From Oscillospiraceae bacterium (GTDB taxonomy: Bacteria > Bacillota > Clostridia > Oscillospirales > Ruminococcaceae), in assembly GCA_017432285.1 (NCBI GenBank), contig JAFRJM010000042.1, positions 95,979 to 159,978 of the forward strand: a DNA stretch of 64,000 bases, given 5' to 3'. Below the pieces are notes generated by a model. That model did not search any database, was not told the origin of the DNA, and was given only the letters and a program-made list of their open reading frames with translations. A program made the position numbers and the translations under genes. This document shows, one piece after another, positions 9,381 through 42,516 of this stretch. The stretch's first letter is position 1. Every line of letters starts with the position of its first letter.

Positions 9381-9464
9381 TGGTGCGAGTGACGAGACTT
9401 GAACTCGTACGTCGTGGACACACGCCCCTCAAACGTGCCTGTCTGCCTATTCCAGCACACTCGC
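9381..9464 (-). tRNA. tRNA-Leu (anticodon GAG)
   Basis: This is an 84-nt class II tRNA with CCA encoded. The acceptor stem GCGAGTG pairs with CACTCGC. The anticodon stem CACGT/GCGTG encloses TTGAGGG, giving anticodon GAG. The long variable arm and the GTTCAAGTC T-loop are visible. It is followed by a terminator. Confidence 0.93.
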
Positions 9465-26563: not shown

Positions 26564-27859
26564 TTATTCGTATCTCAGTGCTTCGATAGGATCAAGATTA
26601 GCAGCCTGTACAGACGGCAGTAGCCCGAAAACGATTCCGACAACTGTTGAGAACACAACAGATACCGCTATTGCCGGGACACTGATCGCGACAGGGACAG
26701 ACGCAACAAAATGAATTACATATGCCAAGCCTATTCCTACTGCTACTCCCAAGATACCGCCTATACTGGTCAAAACAGCTGCTTCGGTAAGGAACTGCCC
26801 GAGTATACGGTTTTTTCTTGCTCCAAGAGCTTTCTTCAGACCTATCTCCCTTGTCCTCTCTGTAACGGATACTAGCATTATATTCATAACTCCGATTCCG
26901 CCAACGAGAAGGGATATTCCTGCAATCCATATGAGCATACTGTTGGTGCTCTTGCTCAGATCCTGTATGTTCTTGGCCTGCTCTAGAAGATCGTCAGCTT
27001 TGTACTTGAACTGCATCTCTCCAGTGCTGCTGTCAGCAGTTTCACTGATTCCCAATGCACTGTTCAGAAGTTCTGCAGCTCCTCTTCCTGCATTAGTCAT
27101 GCTCTCAGTATCCTTGGCTTTTATTACCACTGCCTCCGGTTCATCGAACTGGAACAGAATCGGCCAACATGCAAGAGGAACATACAGTTTTGCAGAAGAG
27201 TTCCCCATATATGTGTAATAGTCCTCTATCGACTCAATAGTGGGCTGGAACTGAGATAAAGTATCAACCACGCCTACCACAAGGAATGTCTCCTGCCCGA
27301 TATCTATGACTTTTCCGATAGGCTCTTCGCTGCTGAACATAGACTTGGCTGTGGAGCGGTCAATAATGACTACTTTGGAAAAATGATCATAATCATGCTG
27401 TGTAAAGAGTCTTCCCTTTACAACCTGCATTCCCACAGTTGAGAAATAATTCTCATCCACTCCGAGCAATCCGCACCCCTGAAGAACGGTGCCGTTATAT
27501 GAAACGTTGCTGACATAGTTTCTAGTGACGAACCTGGACGCTGAAATGACTTCAGGCATTTCGATTATCTGCTGAAGGGTATCCGCAGATACTGGATACA
27601 GTCCGTCCGGTATGCTACCGTAGTCAAATTCGTAATCCCACTCCCCCTGCTTGATCTTTACGGATACTGTATTTGTTCCACCACCGATAAGGTTATTCTT
27701 GATCTGCTCGTTCGTCCCTTTGATCGTCGAGACGATAGCAATAATAGCTGCTATTCCTATGATTATTCCTAGCATTGTGAGGAAAGATCTCAGTTTGTGG
27801 GTAAATATGCCGCGGAAAGCAAGCTTGATGTTTTCTCCGAAACCGCTACGTCTTACCAT
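26564..27859 (-). CDS. MacB-type ABC efflux permease
   Basis: This 431-aa membrane protein has one N-terminal helix ([21 protein letters not shown]), an extracytoplasmic MacB core domain (about residues 45-300), and three C-terminal FtsX helices (about 308-420) with the typical [20 protein letters not shown] loop. It lacks the fused ATPase of Gram-negative MacB; the ATPase is the separate gene at 29799-30494. It is the last gene of the four-gene efflux operon and overlaps the adaptor gene by 7 nt. Confidence 0.93.
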
Positions 27860-29802
27860 CCCGTCACCCCGGATTCGTAATCCGCTTTAGCCCCTTCTAC
27901 CGCGTTCTTTCCATACGGAAAAGCTATATAGTCTTCAAGTGACAAACCCCCATACACCTCAATGTAATATCCGCCGTAAAGGATCCTGCCCACTTCGATA
28001 TACTGCTTGACCATCTTGCCGTTCTCATCCGCTTTTAGAACATAATTCCGTCCGTTTTCTTCTCGTATAAAGCAGCTTTGAAGCGCAAACTCCGCTTTAC
28101 TTGAAGGCGTATCTGATAAGAATGTAATCTCCCCTCCATCCCAAGGCTGAAGTTCATCATCGCAGTCCAGCGAAGCTATGAACGGATAATATGATACATT
28201 CCCTCCGTCGCCGGAATAACTCATACTGTATTCAGCAGGATATGGAGATACTTTTGTGATCGTTCCGGTATATGTCATACCGTTTGACCACATCATTACA
28301 GAGATCTGATCTCCGACTTTTATGGTATTCAGCTGGTTTTCAGAAATAGTGCTGGTGATCTCATAACCGTTTCCACTCTTGACCTGTATCAGGGCCTGAT
28401 CCCCCTGAGGAGCATATGGATCTCCCACTGCTACAACAGTTCCGTCATGAGCAGCACGAACGATACCGTCTGTCGCAGTTTGTTTGGCTTTTCGCCAATT
28501 CAATTCTGCTTGTGACACATTTATATCCAAATCACGAATCAGTTGTGTCTGATCAAGCACCATCTCGTTGATCTCTTCCTGCGAATACATATTCTGCTCA
28601 GGAATCTCAACTGGATCCGGATATGCATTCTCCCGTTTTGTCATAACAAATAAGTTTTGAGCATGTTCAAATACGGACTGCCTGGAGTCATCGAATACGA
28701 TTTCCCCGGATGGAAGCATTTTAAAGATATCCTCAAAAGAAAAATATCCTCTATGGGGATTATCAAATGTTTCCTTTATCCATGCATCCCTATGAATGCC
28801 ATCCTCATCCTCTTTTGTTCCAACTGTAGCTATCAAAACGCTATCCAAACCCTGATAGCTCTCCCATATCTGGAATATGAAATACCTTTGAGGTTCAACA
28901 GTAGATTCTTCATATTCTATTTCTTCATCAGAATCTGTGGAACCGCTTGACTCACGTTCCGGTTTCGACTCTAGTTCTGGCTCTGGCTCCGGCTCCGGCT
29001 CTGGTTCCGGTTCCGGCTCTGGTTCAGGTTCCGGTTCCGGCTCTGGTTCAGGTTGCGGTTCAGGCTCTGGTTGCGGTTCAGGTTCTGGTTCCGGTTCCAG
29101 TTCAGGTTCCGGTTCAGGTTCCGGTTCAGGTTCTGGTTCAGGTTCCGGTTCTGGTTCAGGTTTTACCTTTGGAACCGTGTTCGGTAAGATTGCTTTTTCA
29201 TCATAGTTTAATAAATAGATCATCATCTCACGTGATATCTCAGTATTTAGATTCACGTCTATGACAAATGGGTTTTCTTTTGTTCCTTCTCCTCTGATTG
29301 AATCTGCTTCAAAACGATCGGTTGAAAGGTCATCTACCAGAAGCACGTTAACCCTAGTTTTATAGATTTTATAAACCGGATCAGGAACAACATAAGGCTT
29401 GAATGTCTTAATATATTCGAGACGTTCGCGGGCTTCCTTGAGATCACGTCTTGCCATTTCGTATCTTATCCGATAACTCTCTGCCTGCAGCTTAGCTTGT
29501 GATGCGTCATATTGCATCAAGGGATCGCCTTCTTTTACCTGGTCACCTTGCGACACATAGATTTTGGAAACAAGCATGCTTGTGTCAAGATACACCATTT
29601 GTGTTCCGCCCTGACTTATCTGACCATACCCTGATGCACCAGATTCGATCCATGTATCAGCTATACTCATGACCTGCATAACAGGCGTTGTCTTTCCGCT
29701 GGAAACATATGCACGCGCTCCGAACATGCCTCCGATAAGTGCTGCAATTACAATCAGTGAAATAATTACTGTTTTAATCCTGGAGGAACTCTTTTTGTTC
29801 AT
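27853..29802 (-). CDS. Efflux adaptor (HlyD/MacA-like) with Glu-Pro repeat insert
   Basis: This 649-aa adaptor has an N-terminal anchor helix (residues about 11-30), a lipoyl-like half ([19 protein letters not shown]), helical hairpin parts, and the second half with [19 protein letters not shown] and a C-terminal barrel. It is about 270 residues longer than the second adaptor at 30535-31671. The extra length holds a region (about 115-210), a Glu-Pro dipeptide repeat (about 212-282), and a further domain (about 290-395). EP repeats form stiff rods and are used to span cell walls. It overlaps the ATPase gene by 4 nt. Confidence 0.88.
28965..29164 (-). repeat. Glu-Pro dipeptide-coding repeat inside the adaptor gene
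   Basis: About 66 codons of alternating Glu and Pro, with occasional Gln or Leu, are encoded on the minus strand. On the plus strand the DNA reads as repeated GGTTCC/GGCTCT/GGTTCA hexamers. Such a short-period repeat is prone to length change by replication slippage. Confidence 0.9.
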
Positions 29803-31671: not shown

Positions 31672-31706
31672 CAAAAAACTCCAATAGTTTTTCATATTCT
31701 CCAACA

Positions 31707-31735
31707 ATTATGACAAAGCGAACCTTGAAAGACAA
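31707..31735 (-). promoter_or_regulatory. Promoter of the efflux operon
   Basis: On the minus strand TTGTCT (31730-31735) and CATAAT (31707-31712) are spaced 17 nt. The att core of the integrated element lies only about 17 bp upstream of the -35 box. Confidence 0.65.
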
Positions 31736-31738
31736 CCT

Positions 31739-31766
31739 GCTTAAGCGAAGATTAATGCTTTCTTAA
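31739..31766 (-). promoter_or_regulatory. Phased direct repeats upstream of the efflux promoter
   Basis: On the minus strand TTAAG, TTAAT and TTAAG recur at exact 11-bp intervals just upstream of the -35 box. Such helical-turn spacing is characteristic of OmpR/PhoB-family response-regulator sites. The first two repeats are part of the attachment core of the mobile element. The regulator itself is not in the window. Confidence 0.5.
31752..31766. other. Attachment site, left (attL core)
   Basis: TTAATGCTTTCTTAA, 15 bp, identical to the copy at 37488-37502 that follows the integrase gene. Confidence 0.85.
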
Positions 31767-31822
31767 TTTGGTGTACATTTTGTGTTCTTTTATCACTCTT
31801 TGTCTGTGCCATTTTCCCTAGA

Positions 31823-31849
31823 AAAAAGCGGGTTTTGTTCCCGCTTTTT
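31823..31849. terminator. Terminator after the repressor gene
   Basis: AAAAAGCGGG (31823-31832) and CCCGCTTTTT (31840-31849) form a 10-bp stem with T-runs on both strands. It separates the repressor from the left end of the element. Confidence 0.85.
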
Positions 31850-31913
31850 GTTTTATCTGCTTTTGTCTTTACCACTATAAAAGTGTTAAATTTGGTGTAT
31901 TTTGTTGCATGGT

Positions 31914-32519
31914 TTACAGTATATTTTCTGCGTTTATTATCACATCAATAATCTGTTCTATTTGTGTCAATCGTGATTGAAACTCTTTAAATGAAATAAT
32001 GTGTTCTTCCCACTCTTCATAATTATCTGACGTCATCTTTCTTATACTAACTTGTTTGATCTCAACGTCACGCACTATTGTTTCATGCTTTTTATTATGA
32101 AGAACATAAACCCCATCAGAAGAGCCATCAACAATATATACTCTTCGCCAATCATCATAAAAAACTTCTTTGGGATCAGACGGATAATAATCTTTGTAAA
32201 CCATTCCAAAATGAACAACATACCCAAAATTATTTAAAAAGAAATACCGCTGTGATGTAGTATGATATCCCGCAGAATGTGATAATTCTTTTTTGTTTGA
32301 TTTACCCAACAAATAAAACGGATTTACTCTGAATAACTCGCACAACTTTTTTATCGTTTCATTTTTGGGAAATGTTTTCCCGTTTTCATATTTAGATATC
32401 AGTTTCGCATTTACATCTATCATTTCTGCTAGTTGCTCTTGAGTTAATCCCGCTTCTTTACGCAGACTTTTTATCTTTTCACCGCATAAAATATTCTTTT
32501 GCTTGTTGAACTGATCCAT
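31914..32519 (-). CDS. CI-like repressor with N-terminal HTH
   Basis: This 201-aa protein has an XRE-type helix-turn-helix (residues about 12-66: IKSLRKEAGLTQEQLAEMIDVNAKLISKYENGK). Its C-terminal part (about 80-200) lacks the Ser-Lys peptidase signature of LexA/CI repressors, so induction by RecA-driven self-cleavage is not evident. It is divergent from the excisionase-like gene. The intergenic region holds three copies of an ACTAGAA-type motif that could be its operators. Confidence 0.85.
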   Translation of the reverse strand: MDQFNKQKNILCGEKIKSLRKEAGLTQEQLAEMIDVNAKLISKYENGKTFPKNETIKKLCELFRVNPFYLLGKSNKKELSHSAGYHTTSQRYFFLNNFGYVVHFGMVYKDYYPSDPKEVFYDDWRRVYIVDGSSDGVYVLHNKKHETIVRDVEIKQVSIRKMTSDNYEEWEEHIISFKEFQSRLTQIEQIIDVIINAENIL

Positions 32520-32540
32520 TCAAATAACCCTCTAAAACAT

Positions 32541-32611
32541 AACTAGAAAAATGCACTGGTGTTTTTTCTAGTTTTTCTTTTTTCATGGCGTTTTCATATA
32601 AAAACTAGAAC
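32541..32611. promoter_or_regulatory. Candidate repressor operators
   Basis: AACTAGAAAAA (32541-32551), its inverted form TTTTTCTAG with extra T (32563-32575), and AAAACTAGAAC (32601-32611) lie between the repressor and the excisionase-like gene. The inverted/direct arrangement in a divergent intergenic region is typical of phage-type switches. Confidence 0.5.
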
Positions 32612-32711
32612 AAATCATGCTTTGTCAGTATGTGTTTATTCTGTCTATATCTACTTAAAATTATATTGTGATATCACGTAACAAACAACACAAAAAAAGG
32701 AGCAACACTAA

Positions 32712-32906
32712 ATGAGAAAGACAACTAAATCAGAGAACAATAACAAACTTGCTGTTGATGTTATTACCCTTGCACAAATGCTAGAGTGTGGAACGCAAAC
32801 AGCACGACAGATTGGTGAAGATGCGGGAGCAACAATAAGGATCGGCAGACGTGTTTTGTTCAATGTTCAGCGGGTACAAGAATATCTTGATAGCATTTCC
32901 GCATAA
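32712..32906 (+). CDS. Excisionase-like DNA-binding protein
   Basis: This 64-aa protein has a helix-turn-helix of the excisionase/MerR-like type: ITLAQMLECGTQTARQIGEDAGATIRIGRRVLFNVQRVQEYLD. Such proteins bend DNA at attachment sites and steer the integrase toward excision. It starts a short operon with the replication genes. AAAGGAG precedes its ATG. A regulatory role instead of excision is possible. Confidence 0.75.
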   Translation: MRKTTKSENNNKLAVDVITLAQMLECGTQTARQIGEDAGATIRIGRRVLFNVQRVQEYLDSISA

Positions 32907-32953
32907 AAAAGAACATCTGCACCGCAGATGTTCTTACAGAAAGGAAACAAACA

Positions 32954-33721
32954 ATGAGCAGAACAATACCGCAAGAACGATACAGATCAATTACTACCGC
33001 ATTTTGGAGTGATCCTAAAGTATCGCAGAGTTTCACAGCAATAGATTGTCTTGTGTTCTTGTATCTGATAACTAATTTGCATGGCAATTTAAGTGGGTGT
33101 TTTGAAGTATCTATAAATGATATCTGCCACGAAACAAAGCTGAAGCAAGATCAGATCACTAAATCCATAAAGCATTTAGAAGAACTGGACGTTATCAGAA
33201 CTGATCCAAACACAAACGAAATACTGATATTAAATTTTTATCGGTATAACTGGGGAAACTCTAGCACAGTTAAAACGGGTGTACTCAAGATAGCAAAGCA
33301 TATTAAATCTGATACATTTAGAGATTATGTTCTATCTTTGTGTGATGCTAATGCAGATAGGGTATCGATACCTTATGTATACCCTATCGATAACCTATGC
33401 ATTAGCACTGTAACTGATACTGATACTGAAACTGTAACTGATACTGTATTATTATCTGACAAACCTAAAAAGAAAAAGTACGGAGAATACAAGCACGTAT
33501 CATTGTCTGATGATCAGTTAGAAAAACTGAAAGCAGAACTACCTAACAAGTGGGAGCAACGTATCAAAGCTGTTGATGAATACTGTGAACAAAAAGGAGT
33601 ATCGTACAAAAACTATTATCTAGTAATTAAAAGGTGGACAGACTATCCGAACACTAACAGCAACACAGAAGAACGCACATACAACACAGATAACTTAAAG
33701 GAGATGTTTAAAAAATGGTAA
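32954..33721 (+). CDS. Replisome-organiser-like replication protein
   Basis: This 255-aa protein has an N-terminal winged-helix-like part (residues about 8-100: TTAFWSDPKVSQSFTAIDCLVFLYLITN, with EVSINDICHETKLKQDQITKSIKHLEELDVI). Then comes a low-complexity Thr-Asp-rich linker (about 150-165) and a C-terminal segment (SLSDDQLEKLKAELPNKWEQRIK...YYLVIKRW) like those of phage DnaD-type replication proteins. It overlaps the DnaC-like gene by 7 nt. It is expected to bind the element's origin and recruit the helicase loader. Confidence 0.75.
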   Translation: MSRTIPQERYRSITTAFWSDPKVSQSFTAIDCLVFLYLITNLHGNLSGCFEVSINDICHETKLKQDQITKSIKHLEELDVIRTDPNTNEILILNFYRYNWGNSSTVKTGVLKIAKHIKSDTFRDYVLSLCDANADRVSIPYVYPIDNLCISTVTDTDTETVTDTVLLSDKPKKKKYGEYKHVSLSDDQLEKLKAELPNKWEQRIKAVDEYCEQKGVSYKNYYLVIKRWTDYPNTNSNTEERTYNTDNLKEMFKKW

Positions 33722-34428
33722 CTGAATGTCCTATTTGCGGAGAGCCTTTAAGCATAGAAAAGAAAATAGGAAACACTGTTTTCCCATTTCCCCGTGCTTG
33801 TAAATGTGTCAGAGTAAAACTAGAACATGAACGCATAGAACAAGAGAAAGCGGAACGATACGAAAAGTATCATGATGCTGTTGCAGGAATACCCGCAACC
33901 ATGAGAAACAAAACATTTGAAGCCGATCTTTACCCTAATTCAAAGGTATCTGTAATTGCTAAACAATATGTAGCGAACTGGAAAGAGAACAAGAAACAGA
34001 ATAAAGGGTTATTGCTTGTAGGTTTCCCACGAAACGGGAAAACATATATTGCTACCGCAATAGGAAACGAAATAGCGAAACAGTATCTAGACAGCGTATA
34101 TCTTGACAATTATCTTGATATGATCCGCAAAGTAAACAACTATAAGATATCTGATGATTTGTTTGAGCGGATAGAAAATGCTTCTTTACTGATAATTGAT
34201 GATCTGCAAAGAATTAAAGAGAAAGATAGAAGTACAACCTATGAAATAATCAATAGACGATATGTAACTAATAAGCCTTTTATCATTACAACAAACCTAA
34301 CAGATGCAGATATAAAAAACCTTATTAGCGAAGATGTGCAAAATGATCAAGTGTTTTCAAGAATACTACAAGTGTGCGAACCTATAGGAGTATCAAATCC
34401 GCTACTAGTAAACAGTATCTATCAGTAA
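33715..34428 (+). CDS. DnaC-like helicase loader
   Basis: This 237-aa AAA+ ATPase has an N-terminal Cys cluster (CPICGEPL...CKC, residues about 5-30), a Walker A variant GFPRNGKT near residue 103, and a Walker B LLIIDDL near residue 159. It loads the host replicative helicase at the origin. The P-loop reads G-F-P-R-N-G-K-T rather than the common G-x-x-G-x-G-K-T; the catalytic Gly-Lys-Thr is intact. Its 3' end is duplicated 337 bp downstream. Confidence 0.88.
   Translation: MVTECPICGEPLSIEKKIGNTVFPFPRACKCVRVKLEHERIEQEKAERYEKYHDAVAGIPATMRNKTFEADLYPNSKVSVIAKQYVANWKENKKQNKGLLLVGFPRNGKTYIATAIGNEIAKQYLDSVYLDNYLDMIRKVNNYKISDDLFERIENASLLIIDDLQRIKEKDRSTTYEIINRRYVTNKPFIITTNLTDADIKNLISEDVQNDQVFSRILQVCEPIGVSNPLLVNSIYQ
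34386..34428 (+). repeat. Direct repeat, copy 1 (3' end of dnaC-like gene)
   Basis: This 43-bp segment encodes the last residues of the DnaC-like protein (SNPLLVNSIYQ and stop). It is 39/43 identical to 34723-34765. Confidence 0.85.
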
Positions 34429-34722
34429 ACAGTTAAGAAATAAAAAAGATCCTTCTATTGGTCCAAGGTGAAGAGAGTTATTAAACAATAACTCTGTCCG
34501 ATCCTTATCCAATCTAGAAGGATTTCTTTCTGATAAGAGAAGATTATCAAAAGGTGGAGCAGGCCAGAACATTGACCACTTCTACCACCTTTTAATCTGT
34601 TGAAGTAAAGGAATATAGCCGTGTCACCACCAATTGGTGCCATGTCTATAAGCATTACCTCTTATATAAAGATTAATGAATAACAGCGTATTTGTCAATG
34701 TGCTGGATCTTTGAATAACTTT

Positions 34723-34765
34723 AGGAGCATCAAATCCACAACTAGTAAACAGTATCTATCAATAA
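34723..34765 (+). repeat. Direct repeat, copy 2 (dnaC 3'-end remnant)
   Basis: This is a second, diverged copy of the dnaC-like gene's 3' end (four differences, including V to A and L to Q codons), still in a readable form with the same stop. It bounds the first structured block on its right side. Confidence 0.85.
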
Positions 34766-34833
34766 AAAAAGAGTTTGGCACTTTCAAGACTAGGAATTAC
34801 CGACACAATCGGATTAACCAGTATGCCAAACTC
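34764..34833 (-). terminator. T-tailed hairpin closing the structured region on the minus strand
   Basis: GAGTTTGGCA (34771-34780) and TGCCAAACTC (34824-34833) form a 10-bp stem with an internal CCGA/TCGG hairpin. On the minus strand it is followed by seven T (34764-34770). It could end a transcript coming from the TerS-like gene. Confidence 0.6.
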
Positions 34834-35188
34834 AATAATTGTTAGGCTGATATTTTCAAGACTATGGATTACCGATAATAGTGGCGCTGACACAAAGTCA
34901 CGGGGATTAGCCCCTACTATCCACTAACACCAAAAGTGTATCGGAATTACAAGGATATCAAGCCTCATAAATAGAATAGTTATTCACTGAAAATAAGTCA
35001 ATACTATAATTTCCACGTAACAAACATACCGACTATTTCACAATAAATATGTGGCTCGGTTCTACATACCAAGCCACATATAACAATGGTGAGTTAATCA
35101 ACAGCAGGGGCGACACATCTATAGATGGTGGCAAACCTACCTTACCATAGTTAATCATTACTATAGAGAATTTGTCTTTCCAAGTCAA

Positions 35189-35485
35189 TCACCTAATTGT
35201 TTCTACGATTATTTTGTAAGGCTCTTGTACTGTCATATCCACACTTTCTTTAGGCTTTTGCCCTAAAGTATCACGCAATATTTCAAACCCTTTATCGCTG
35301 TGCTTGGCTCTTTCAATCATATTCTTTATGATCTCGATAAAATCATCATCTGTCATCAATTCTTTTATCGCTTCAGATATGATCCTATTCTCAAGTTTAT
35401 TCTTTGCCCTTTTGACAACAGATTTCTTTTGCATTTCCCGTGCAACTTCCGTGCAAGGTGTACGCAAATTATCTATCCCGCTCAT
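35189..35485 (-). CDS. TerS-like small protein
   Basis: This 98-aa basic protein reads MSGIDNLRTP at the start, then a helical KSVVKRAKNKLENRIISEAIKEL segment, and ends GFEILRDTLGQKPKESVDMTV. The tail matches the wording of many phage small-terminase-like proteins (EIIRDTIGEKPV), though the protein is short. Small terminases recognise DNA for packaging; satellites carry their own to redirect helper capsids. The assignment rests on motif memory, not an alignment. It faces the replication genes and is followed by the structured region. Confidence 0.6.
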   Translation of the reverse strand: MSGIDNLRTPCTEVAREMQKKSVVKRAKNKLENRIISEAIKELMTDDDFIEIIKNMIERAKHSDKGFEILRDTLGQKPKESVDMTVQEPYKIIVETIR

Positions 35486-35593
35486 TCATTCTACCCCGCA
35501 AAACTATTCTTAAAAAGGGAAAAACAGAGATTATAATCTCTGTTCCCCACACACATAACCACCCACAAATAACCAAAGAATAAAATTATACTA

Positions 35594-35800
35594 TCATTTT
35601 TCGCAGACATATTCAACTATATCCCCTACATCACAATTCAGCAGGGTACATATCTTATTTATCTGATCCCAACTAACCAATTTATTATCCCTTAATTTCT
35701 GAATTGTAGTTTCTGCCAACAGTTTTTCTTTTCTCAATTTATATGTGCTTAAACCCTTGTTTTTAAGGCTCTCAAGCACATTTATTTTGTATTTGATCAT
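35594..35800 (-). CDS. Cro/C1-type HTH regulator
   Basis: This 68-aa protein is a single helix-turn-helix domain (LKNKGLSTYKLRKEKLLAETTIQKLRDNKLVSWDQINKICTLLNCDVGDIVEYV), like small XRE regulators. I chose ATG 35798-35800, with AGGGG about 9 nt upstream, over a start 17 codons earlier. It is divergent from the 50-aa gene and integrase. Three TGTACAT repeats lie between them. Confidence 0.82.
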   Translation of the reverse strand: MIKYKINVLESLKNKGLSTYKLRKEKLLAETTIQKLRDNKLVSWDQINKICTLLNCDVGDIVEYVCEK

Positions 35801-35870
35801 GTTCTGCTTCCCCTTGTTTTCTCTTGCTACAACTATACTAATGATACTCATAATATGAACTCATTACAAG

Positions 35871-35912
35871 TGTACATAAATGCTATGTTGTACATTCAAT
35901 CTTTGTGTACAT
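35871..35912. promoter_or_regulatory. Triple TGTACAT operator-like repeats
   Basis: TGTACAT occurs at 35871, 35889 and 35906, spaced 18 and 17 bp, and a related TACAT follows at 35921. The array lies between the HTH gene and a TATAAT (35942-35947) ahead of the 50-aa protein and integrase. It is a likely binding array for the HTH protein. Confidence 0.55.
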
Positions 35913-35981
35913 TGTCAATATACATACACTCATAACGAATGTATAATTGTCATATAAGATATTTCAAAGGAGATAACACAC

Positions 35982-36134
35982 ATGGCAAACAGAAATCAAT
36001 TAACTGAACTGATAGATAAGATAAATTCAATGTCTGCAGAAGAATTAAAGGAGTTTGTAAAACAGCTTCAGATTTACACCACACCCGAAAAAACACAAGC
36101 AGAAAGCAACACAGTTTCAAAGGAGAATAACTAA
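35982..36134 (+). CDS. 50-aa protein upstream of the integrase
   Basis: This small gene runs from ATG 35982 to TAA 36132-36134, with AAAGGAG about 9 nt upstream. The protein is helical (LTELIDKINSMSAEELKEFVKQLQ) with a polar tail. Its stop lies two bases before the integrase ATG, so they are co-translated. The function is unknown; a recombination-directing or regulatory role is possible by position. Confidence 0.75.
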   Translation: MANRNQLTELIDKINSMSAEELKEFVKQLQIYTTPEKTQAESNTVSKENN

Positions 36135-36136
36135 CC

Positions 36137-37369
36137 ATGAAAAAGGATATAAAAGGCAGAGTACTAAATAAGGGAGAAGATCAATTATCAGACGGAAGAT
36201 ATCGTTACAGATACACAGCAAACGGAACACGCAAAGATGTTTACTCTTGGAAACTGTTACCCACAGATCGCACACCGAAAGGCAAGAAAGACAATCTGTC
36301 TTTGCGTGAGTTAGAAAAACAGATCACAATAAATGCTTCTCTCGGTATAAGTTCATATGAAGCAGACAAGATGTCTGTAATGGAACTGATAGAGAGATAC
36401 TGGAAACAGTGTAACTATAAGAGAAACACCGAAAGAGCATACACGATCCTAATAAATAAGCATGTCAAACCGCAGATCGGAAACATAAAGATATCTAATG
36501 TTAGACCCTCTACAATCCGCAACTTCTTTTTCAAACTCGCAGAGGATCACAGCCAATCCACAGTAAATACAATAAATGCTGTATTATATCCCGCTTTTGA
36601 TATGGCGGTACGTGACGGGATCATCAGAAGCAATCCAGTTATCGGAGCGACAAAAGGATTATCAAAGAAAGCAAAGCAGACAGACAGCAAAAAACGTGCA
36701 TTAACTCTTGAAGAACAGAGAGCATTTCTCAATTATATTAAAGATGCTTTCCCCTACTGGTATTCATTCTTTGTTGTTGCTATTCAAACTGGTATGCGTA
36801 TAGGAGAGATAACTGCACTGACATGGAATGATTGCAACATGAGTGATGAAACAATCAGCATAAATAAAACCATGCTTTATGGTGGGTGTTCTGATTATGA
36901 TTTCAAAATCAATTCACCCAAAACAGAAAGCGGAAAAAGAACCATAAAGATGTTCCCCGCTGTTAAGAAAGCATTACAAGAGCAGAAGATCAAAGGCAAA
37001 AACAATATCAAGATAGATAGCTATACTGGGTTTATATTCACTACCCCGCAGAACAATTTAATATCGGTAGGCTATATCAATAGATTGCTTGAAAGGATCA
37101 CCGCACAATATAACGCAGAGGAAACAATCAAAGCAGATGCAGAACACAGACAGCCTTTATTGTTACCGAAGAACATAACGTCACACTGGTTAAGATACAC
37201 TTGCTGTACTAGATTTTGTGAAAACGTAGCTAGTATTGATGAAGTGAAACTGATCTCCAATTATCTTGGTCACAAGAATATTGATGTTACACTCAAAGTA
37301 TATATGTCTGTATCACCAAACAAAGAAAATGAACTTCAATACAGAGTACAGCAAAACGCATTTGCATGA
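36137..37369 (+). CDS. Tyrosine-type integrase
   Basis: This 410-aa site-specific recombinase has an N-terminal AP2-like arm-binding part, a SAM-like core-binding domain (about residues 70-165), and the catalytic domain with Arg in TGMRIGEITALTW, His-x-x-Arg in SHWLRYTCCTRF, His in YLGHKN and the nucleophile in LKVYMSVS. It inserts and excises the element at the 15-bp core that follows 118 bp after its stop. AAGGAG lies upstream in the end of the 50-aa gene. Confidence 0.96.
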   Translation: MKKDIKGRVLNKGEDQLSDGRYRYRYTANGTRKDVYSWKLLPTDRTPKGKKDNLSLRELEKQITINASLGISSYEADKMSVMELIERYWKQCNYKRNTERAYTILINKHVKPQIGNIKISNVRPSTIRNFFFKLAEDHSQSTVNTINAVLYPAFDMAVRDGIIRSNPVIGATKGLSKKAKQTDSKKRALTLEEQRAFLNYIKDAFPYWYSFFVVAIQTGMRIGEITALTWNDCNMSDETISINKTMLYGGCSDYDFKINSPKTESGKRTIKMFPAVKKALQEQKIKGKNNIKIDSYTGFIFTTPQNNLISVGYINRLLERITAQYNAEETIKADAEHRQPLLLPKNITSHWLRYTCCTRFCENVASIDEVKLISNYLGHKNIDVTLKVYMSVSPNKENELQYRVQQNAFA

Positions 37370-37430
37370 TGTTTTTCGAATTTTTGGTGTAAAAAAGTGG
37401 TAAACTTGCAAATCATATAGCAAAACAAAT

Positions 37431-37465
37431 ACCCGCAAACCCTTATAAATAAAGGAATTGCGGGT
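37431..37465 (+). terminator. Terminator of the integrase gene
   Basis: ACCCGCAA (37431-37438) pairs with TTGCGGGT (37458-37465), with an inner CCTT/AAGG pair; the following T-run is short (ATTTC). Confidence 0.65.
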
Positions 37466-37487
37466 ATTTCATTCACAATAATGACAG

Positions 37488-37502
37488 TTAATGCTTTCTT
37501 AA
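37488..37502. other. Attachment site, right (attR core)
   Basis: TTAATGCTTTCTTAA, identical to 31752-31766. The remaining bases from 37503 to 37630 look like ordinary host intergenic DNA with no feature I can support. Confidence 0.85.
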
Positions 37503-37632
37503 CTCTTAGTGTCATTAGAAACAAAAAATGTTGCACCGGATCGCATTTTTATAGCTATTTATTCCGTTGTTTTATCAATAGTCATACAGATTCATAACCG
37601 TGCAGTTATTAGTTCAAATTGATTTCTATACA

Positions 37633-37668
37633 AAAACGAGAATGTTTTTACAATAGCATTCTCGTTTT
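37633..37668. terminator. Terminator of the esterase-like operon
   Basis: AAAACGAGAATG (37633-37644) pairs with CATTCTCGTTTT (37657-37668), a 12-bp stem with T-runs on both strands. Confidence 0.88.
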
Positions 37669-37698
37669 CCTATATTTGATTACTACACGATCTTATAT

Positions 37699-38715
37699 CT
37701 ATTGTTTATGCTGCGCGAAAAGCCAGTCACAGATCTCAGGATTATTTAACGCCGGTATCCATCCCCAGTGAGTCATCTGACTATATAATCCATATGACTG
37801 CATTTCATCCTCAGGAAACACCGTGCACCTTACGTTTTTATTTTGGAGATCTTCTATAAAGTATTGGTATATCTCTTTCACATAAGGCGATTCCCCTGTT
37901 GAATCATTCACGCCAATAGCAAACCAGATTGGAAGATCTTTAAGTGATGACATATCCGGTGAATACTTTTTCCAGAACAGCATCGACAGAACTCCTGCGA
38001 GCAGATCCTTATTTGCAACGGCAAACCGTAACGTGACCTGGAACGGAGCAAGTCCTGCAGCATAAATCCTACGCGGATCCGCTTTTCCCTCATCTATAAG
38101 CCGGTCGATGATCTTTCTCACTTCTGCAAGTTCATCATCAGACCATCTGTTGTTTGACTGCGGCCCCAGAACGATGCATTTATACCTGGATTGAGATTGA
38201 GGTTCACCCCATTTTGTAATGACACGGTTGTTTGCCATATGCTTGTAATTGTCCGTTCCGCTCTCCCCGTTGCCATGGAAAGCAACTACAAGCGGAAGCG
38301 GTCCATCGCTTTCCGGTACTAACAGACGGTATGCCATTCCATTCTCTGCAGTAAGAGCCTCGAAATCATCCACCACAGCTACCTTCATATCAGTGATATC
38401 TGCTTTGGAAAGACTTATCGGCTCATCCCCCAGTGCTGCTTCTCCCTCATATGTATCATTAAAAAGAAACGGATCCACAAACACTGTCAGACTATTATCT
38501 GTTTTTTCTACTTTCCATGCTCCGAAGCTCTCGTGTCCGGCGATCGGATGTTTAGACGTCTTTGTGAATTTGAAGTCTTTAGTTGATATTCCGGACAGAT
38601 CACACTCCTGATCAAAGCACATTGTAAACGATAAAACGTACTGCCCATAATCTCTTACACAAGTATTCGCCGTAACAGAGATATTAACATTTTTAGCTGA
38701 TAAACTATTGCTCAT
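37699..38715 (-). CDS. Alpha/beta-hydrolase-fold esterase-like protein lacking the nucleophile Ser
   Basis: This 338-aa protein has an N-terminal immunoglobulin-like domain (about residues 1-120) and a C-terminal hydrolase domain starting at PLVVAFHGNGESGTDN. In relatives the nucleophile sits in G-x-S-x-G; here the elbow reads AAGLAPF, with Ala223 where Ser is expected. The Asp (IGVNDSTGES) and His (QMTHWGWIP) regions remain. It may be inactive as an esterase or use a shifted residue. The start is ATG 38713-38715 with AGAGG 6 nt upstream. It is last in the rex-nadK run. Confidence 0.82.
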   Translation of the reverse strand: MSNSLSAKNVNISVTANTCVRDYGQYVLSFTMCFDQECDLSGISTKDFKFTKTSKHPIAGHESFGAWKVEKTDNSLTVFVDPFLFNDTYEGEAALGDEPISLSKADITDMKVAVVDDFEALTAENGMAYRLLVPESDGPLPLVVAFHGNGESGTDNYKHMANNRVITKWGEPQSQSRYKCIVLGPQSNNRWSDDELAEVRKIIDRLIDEGKADPRRIYAAGLAPFQVTLRFAVANKDLLAGVLSMLFWKKYSPDMSSLKDLPIWFAIGVNDSTGESPYVKEIYQYFIEDLQNKNVRCTVFPEDEMQSYGLYSQMTHWGWIPALNNPEICDWLFAQHKQ

Positions 38716-42427: not shown

Positions 42428-42516
42428 TGGCGGAGAGTGCAGGATTCGAACCCGCGTGGACTTTCGCCCTAACGGTTTTCAAGACCGCCCCGTTATGGCC
42501 ACTTCGGTAACTCTCC
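42428..42516 (-). tRNA. tRNA-Ser (anticodon TGA)
   Basis: This is an 89-nt class II tRNA with CCA encoded. The acceptor stem GGAGAGT pairs with ACTCTCC; the anticodon arm CGGTCTTGAAAACCG gives anticodon TGA; the long variable arm and GGTTCGAATCC T-arm are clear. It precedes a terminator. Confidence 0.95.

Follow-up and report, generated by a model that had tools for sequence, protein, structure and literature searches.

PICIs are typically larger than the 5.75-kb element described here. Intrinsic terminators between convergent genes are stems with T runs, and in the usual form a G+C-bearing stem with a short loop has the T run directly after it. In known Gram-positive PICIs, the initiator gene is followed immediately on its 3' side by the origin, which comprises two iteron sets that flank an AT-rich stretch (PMC6092414). 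The PLE satellites of Vibrio set a precedent for satellite RNA, since a non-coding product is predicted for their most abundant transcript (PMC7567579).

The window considered here, i.e., the whole 64,000 nucleotides of DNA that were analysed, contains a structured non-coding segment (34429-35188, called the stretch below) inside a small TerS-carrying element, a finding supported by the folding analyses (Table 1). The genes dnaC (+) and terS (-) are convergent and face each other across the stretch. The element has the gene set by which PICIs are recognized, namely an integrase, a divergent repressor and a replication module without capsid genes; neither a capsid nor a tail gene was detected among the eight element proteins scanned, and this gene content suggests a satellite-like character. 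We infer the element ends from the direct repeats alone: TTAATGCTTTCTTAA matches three times in the window at up to two mismatches (0.32 expected), the third match (36963-36977) having one mismatch. No empty site was found among nine genomes of the genus, five of which (the source genome included) matched a portion of a flank and none of which spanned the junction; the source assembly is listed with a completeness of 54.57%.

Table 1. Features of the TerS-carrying element and its non-coding stretch (window coordinates).
Feature	Position	Strand	Remarks
Integrated element, 5.75 kb	31752..37502		Direct repeat of 15 bp, TTAATGCTTTCTTAA, at either end (31752-31766 and 37488-37502); putative att sites
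XRE/Cro-CI type repressor, 201 aa	31914..32519	-	HTH_19, HTH_3; phrog_8
DUF6462 protein, 64 aa, possibly excisionase-like	32712..32906	+	PF20063 at its cut-off; role predicted
DnaD-like replisome organiser	32954..33721	+	phrog_1701, E 1.3e-22; no Pfam family
Origin-like repeats inside the DnaD-like gene	33346..33446		Inverted repeats, nested, the outer arms perfect over 10 bp; 18-bp repeat in three copies with 11-bp spacing; 16-bp repeat in three copies with 12-bp spacing
DnaC-like helicase loader	33715..34428	+	phrog_50, E 5.3e-40; IstB_IS21
Repeat copy a	34382..34429	+	Covers the final codons and the stop codon of the dnaC-like gene
Non-coding part A, hairpins H1 to H4	34430..34718		Fold z -4.77 (+), -5.47 (-)
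Hairpin H1, nested	34447..34525		Followed by T6 on the minus strand and by a T-rich tail on the plus strand; terminator-like both ways; not reported by terminator scan
Hairpin H2	34546..34596		AAAAGGTGG / CCACCTTTT
Hairpin H3	34602..34661		
Repeat copy b	34719..34766	+	Degenerate duplicate of the dnaC 3' end, 43/48 equal (90%)
Non-coding part B, hairpins H5 to H9	34767..35188		Fold z -5.65 (+), -4.18 (-)
Hairpin H5	34771..34833		Perfect 10-bp stem around the internal-loop motif; followed by T7 (34770-34764) on the minus strand; not reported by terminator scan
Hairpin H6, branched	34844..34965		Internal-loop motif as in H5, outer stem different
Hairpin H8	35047..35081	-	Terminator-like, behind terS; found by scan
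Promoter-like TTGACT-17-TATAGT, 10/12	35160..35188	-	Just behind terS
TerS-like protein, 98 aa	35189..35485	-	Identity to proteins encoded before TerL genes (L069, L072)
Cro/C1-type HTH protein, 85 aa	35594..35851	-	PF13443
50-aa protein	Between Cro/C1 HTH protein and integrase in gene order	+	
Tn916-type tyrosine integrase, 410 aa	36137..37369	+	PF02920, PF00589

The TerS-like protein shares 36% and 32% identity with proteins encoded directly upstream of genes for the terminase large subunit, which was recognized by phrog_2 in the first of these two phage contigs (L069) and by eye in the second (L072). Its direct matches in PHROGs are to families of unknown function at E 0.005 or worse, and no further names for the element proteins came from NCBIfam or PADLOC. 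A TerS-like gene on the phage contig L072 (3903-4247) has an in-frame TGA and is open if TGA is read as tryptophan, which suggests a host that uses this code. Elsewhere in the window, a 649-aa protein (27853-29802, minus strand) was judged membrane-fusion-like by eye, and its long Pro-Glu repeat gives rise to long antisense ORFs at 28937-29264.

Among 297 family genomes, 43 have a match to the DnaC-like protein at E <= 1e-15 (the source genome included; the others at 26-35% identity); 41 phage records match it as well, all under 60%, and none was confirmed in IMG/VR or genome_contigs. The DnaD-like protein was detected in 22 of the 297 family genomes, again counting its own, and the integrase in 400 plasmid records, all under 60%; neither was found in IMG/VR. 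For the TerS-like protein, only the source genome matched among the 297, phage records yielded nothing, and four IMG/VR loci plus one genome_contigs locus were recovered, three of the four IMG/VR loci being the same hit and apparently one phage. A DnaC frame was found in 28 of 29 loci, and nine of these 28 have gaps of at least 150 nt without ORFs of 70 aa. The longest such gap (459 nt in L031, not directly behind dnaC) folds at -24.5 kcal/mol per 100 nt, as against -25.0 for the stretch. Further loci have gaps of up to 475 nt. None of the gaps is as long as 750 nt, but some of them may be structured. Upstream of the related TerS gene in L069, positions 4201-4500 fold better than chance (z -5.8, 25 shuffles), on the opposite side of terS from that in the window, and match nothing in Rfam at gathering scores.

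The initial annotation had described about 750 nt of dense hairpins without a gene between the DnaC-like and TerS-like genes, and this description was borne out in substance. Six ORFs of at least 40 aa (44-66 aa in length) reach into the stretch; when each was scanned separately, neither PHROGs (best E 0.057) nor Pfam (best 0.047) had a match at E <= 0.01, and we see no credible gene there. The idea of a decayed gene was likewise discarded, these small ORFs having no PHROGs or Pfam family. With pairing spans of up to 180 nt, the MFE of the stretch corresponds to z -6.59 on the plus strand and -4.86 on the minus strand and was reached by none of 150 shuffles per strand; folds of unlimited span gave z -6.59 (+) and -5.24 (-) with 20 shuffles. 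Parts A and B folded separately have z scores from -4.18 to -5.65, again reached by 0 of 150 shuffles. The first-pass controls, 134 strand-windows of 760 nt at a step of 950, had a median z of -0.9; some overlap the stretch, and with only 14 shuffles each the values are noisy. The lowest of them (30401, minus strand) lay at z -8.7 with 14 shuffles and at -4.31 with 120. Repeating eight strand-windows at 120 shuffles (the five with the lowest z, the opposite strand of one of these five, and the stem-rich control at 33061 on both strands) gave values from z -1.91 to -4.34, and in five of the eight no shuffle out of 120 reached the observed energy. The stretch is the most extreme among the windows run with at least 120 shuffles, and below-chance folding is found elsewhere too.

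Perfect Watson-Crick stems of at least 8 bp within 160 nt number seven in the stretch, against a shuffle mean of 1.87 and a maximum of six in 150 shuffles; five of the seven have 9-10 bp, and by this count the "at least eight stems of 8-10 bp" first annotated are too many. Two of the seven, both long-range (34569-34576/34694-34701 and 34851-34858/34988-34995), are absent from the best folds. The nesting that had also been claimed is real for H1 and H6. Hairpins H1, H2, H3, H5 and H8 each beat their shuffles on both strands, H6 does so on the plus strand only (z -2.85; minus strand -0.90), and H4, H7 and H9 do not stand out from theirs. Hairpins also occur outside the stretch: the segment 33061-33820, which is mostly the DnaD-like gene, holds eight perfect stems of at least 8 bp. 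G-U pairs enclosed on both sides by shared pairs occur twice on the plus strand (34448/34524 and 34621/34643) and three times on the minus strand (34471/34498, 34564/34575 and 35057/35071); when flanking on at least one side is accepted, the numbers rise to 4 and 12. Neither way of counting discriminates between the strands.

H5 and H6 have a 22-nt motif, TTTCAAGACTANGRATTACCGA, in common, with 20 of 22 positions equal. Its two copies lie within 94 bases, no other was found in the window at up to three mismatches, and none of 100 shuffles contained two matches. Around the motif, the outer arms are paired in both copies, with 10 and 9 pairs; at least 9 pairs were obtained in 0.06% of 200,000 random flank pairs taken from the same stretch. 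When these two hairpins are compared outward from the motif, with the H6 bulge placed by hand and the outer stems assumed homologous, five pairs are equal, four are changed on both sides, none is changed on one side only, and one is broken. In this sample of two, the pattern looks like maintained pairing under a freely varying sequence; without homology of the outer stems, the changed pairs would amount to no more than two stems of independent origin.

At gathering scores, Rfam returned one tRNA only over the whole window, and with permissive settings the hits in 34380-35240 were three, all to unrelated families (E 0.16, 0.98 and 4.9). A large RNA of the GOLLD or ROOL type had been put forward for the stretch and is not supported, as neither family, nor HEARO, appeared among the Rfam matches at gathering scores in the window or, for 34380-35240, among those with E up to 5. 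In the source genome, a DNA search at E <= 1 gave four matches, namely the stretch itself, the copy of the dnaC end and two weak ones (L003, taken for coding by eye, and L004). The same type of search matched one of nine genomes of the genus, the source genome, and four of 394 in the order, in genomes sampled from larger groups and with two candidates scored per genome among the matches listed, so that weak homologues could be missed. Apart from the source genome, these four were G530, G139 and G378, which match simple repeats at 33406-33446, outside the stretch; they were judged chance after the surrounding ORFs had been listed, and were dropped as evidence of a conserved origin. The pattern of the H5/H6 motif was found nowhere in IMG/VR and, among 82 loci, only in the window's own copies. 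Two covariance models built from the window alone recovered the source genome in one case (R1, 1 of 347 family genomes) and the source genome plus G090 in the other (R2, 2 of 337); the G090 match, a short hairpin pair in a different chromosomal setting, was rejected as chance. The searches made thus yielded no homologue of the stretch, and H5 and H6 are the one pair in which compensatory changes could be compared. No published description of the stretch was met in a literature search, an absence that is no proof.

The outer stems of H5 and H6 together comprise 20 compared pairs, of which 19 are Watson-Crick; G-U pairs are absent, so that DNA could form these stems as well. The stretch might act as a DNA site, in the form of hairpins or as a recognition site: a pac or cos packaging site used by the neighbouring TerS, a single-strand origin or site of primosome assembly, or a further component of the replication origin. 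Its location between the replication genes and terS would suit such a role, as would the position of the known PICI origins, 3' of the initiator (PMC6092414). We nevertheless consider this reading unlikely; on a packaging site in particular, the findings weigh neither for nor against. A rolling-circle initiator is absent among the eight proteins scanned, and blastn with the stretch found no DNA shared with phage or plasmid records. Repeats between 34370 and 35200 occur in two copies only, with no iteron set of the PICI kind. The complex replication origin that had been envisaged for the stretch loses likelihood through the origin-like repeats found within the DnaD-like gene, and what still speaks for it is the PICI precedent. 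The repeats at 33346-33446 are possibly the origin of the element, judging from their arrangement. A DnaD-like protein from another genome of the genus, whose phage-like gene cluster was judged by eye, has 45% identity and aligns at the repeat region, part of the repeats being absent; coding constraint could explain this alignment.

The stretch is divided into parts A and B by the degenerate copy of the dnaC 3' end, the resemblance of which may extend weakly upstream of the 48 bases. Such a copy in the middle of the stretch suggests rearrangement. The initial annotation had reasoned that non-coding sequence making up 13 percent of the element must be important, an argument weakened by this copy because it suggests that recombination debris is kept. 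Beside each dnaC end, a stem is followed on the minus strand by a T run (T6 at H1, T7 at H5). Terminator-like sites in 31700-37700 number six by scan, against 2.7 expected, and include H8, not H1 and H5; the apices of the latter two are long, branched or internally looped. Promoter-like sites in the same region are at background frequency (25 against 25.6 expected).

These observations bear on a second alternative, in which the stretch is a terminator array combined with a recombination scar between convergent genes. H8 would end terS, and H1 and perhaps H2 would end dnaC; H5 would be an older terminator, once behind another dnaC copy, and recombination or duplication would have lengthened the intergenic segment. 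This explanation is a real possibility, if a somewhat doubtful one, and in its favour are the convergent genes, the fitting tails (minus-strand T runs after H1 and H5, plus the T-rich tail that follows H1 on the plus strand), the terminator-like H8 on the minus strand, and the dnaC copy, which betrays rearrangement. However, about 750 nt is long for such a purpose, H3 and H6 have no T run, the terminator scan did not report H1 and H5, and the internal-loop motif of H5 and H6 is unnecessary for termination.

Our tentative first choice is that the stretch represents an orphan structured RNA of a small, TerS-carrying, phage-satellite-like element, built of two consecutive parts, each of which would end on the minus strand in a terminator-like hairpin next to one of the two copies of the dnaC 3' end. 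With modest confidence, we place this orphan RNA narrowly ahead of the terminator array, and the DNA site after both. What places it ahead of the array is that termination requires neither H3 nor H6 nor the internal loop common to H5 and H6. In its support stand the folding, the excess of perfect stems, the H5/H6 motif with its paired arms, the T runs on the minus strand and the lack of an ORF family. Against it stand the lack of an Rfam match and of any homologue in the searches made, the restriction of the H5/H6 comparison to two hairpins, the dnaC copy in the middle with its hint of rearrangement debris, the three hairpins at shuffle level, the background frequency of promoter-like sites and the control windows, mostly or partly coding, that reach z -4.3. 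The signals for strand conflict as well: H6 folds better on the plus strand, against an RNA from the minus strand, and the T runs and H8 favour the minus strand. The readings can overlap: the outer hairpins could terminate transcription regardless of what the interior is for, and it is probable that the outermost ones serve as ends of the convergent dnaC and terS messages too.

If an RNA is made, transcription would run on the minus strand from just behind terS, with a predicted start near 35153, and the transcript would end at about 34767 or, by read-through, at about 34440, yielding RNAs of roughly 390 and 710 nt. A protein might bind at the repeated internal loop, and the RNA could take part in the cycle of the element after induction or in the interaction between element and helper phage. 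A scan for antisense complementarity covered parts A and B against the eight element transcripts, the dnaC 3'-end copy being left out, and gave one hit above z 2.5 in 32 comparisons with 40 shuffles each. This single hit pairs part A (+), 34480-34509, with the DUF6462 coding region at about 32840-32870, over about 30 nt with gaps (z 4.5).

A bolder extension of the orphan RNA, which we regard as rather improbable, would be a new class of large satellite RNA with two tandem structured modules, each with its own terminator. The repeated loop would then bind one protein at more than one place, and 34719-34766, if read on the minus strand, would be antisense to the end of the dnaC message and could tune replication of the element. 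Should the stretch be an RNA of either kind, a very small TerS-carrying element would devote 13 percent of its length to structured ncRNA and would offer a compact system in which to study the function of large RNAs of phages and satellites. Should it be a terminator array with a scar, it would advise caution, as dense hairpins between convergent genes of mobile elements need not mean a large RNA.

Compared with described systems, the stretch resembles intrinsic terminators between convergent genes in its stems with T runs between converging genes, and differs from them in its length, its branching and its repeated internal-loop motif. GOLLD and ROOL offer a likeness as large, elaborately folded RNAs of phages or prophages with unknown function (PMC12286853). 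They often, though not strictly, lie near tRNA islands (PMC12286853), whereas the window has two single tRNAs (9381-9464 and 42428-42516), the nearest about 7 kb from the stretch, and an Rfam match to either family is absent. With the PICIs, the element has in common the integrase, the divergent repressor, the replication genes, the stand-alone TerS and, among the eight proteins scanned, the lack of a capsid gene (PMC6092414). It differs in its much smaller size (5.75 kb), in a DnaD/DnaC pair instead of primase-rep, in having its origin-like repeats within the initiator gene, and in a placement and orientation of terS and integrase unlike the PICI map (PMC6092414). The PLE RNA shows antisense homology to the leaders of PLE genes (PMC7567579), whereas the one comparison that stood out here lies in a coding region. 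The transcript between the inverted repeats of PLE was demonstrated by RNA-seq; like the stretch, it belongs to a non-coding part of a phage satellite or satellite-like element (PMC7567579).
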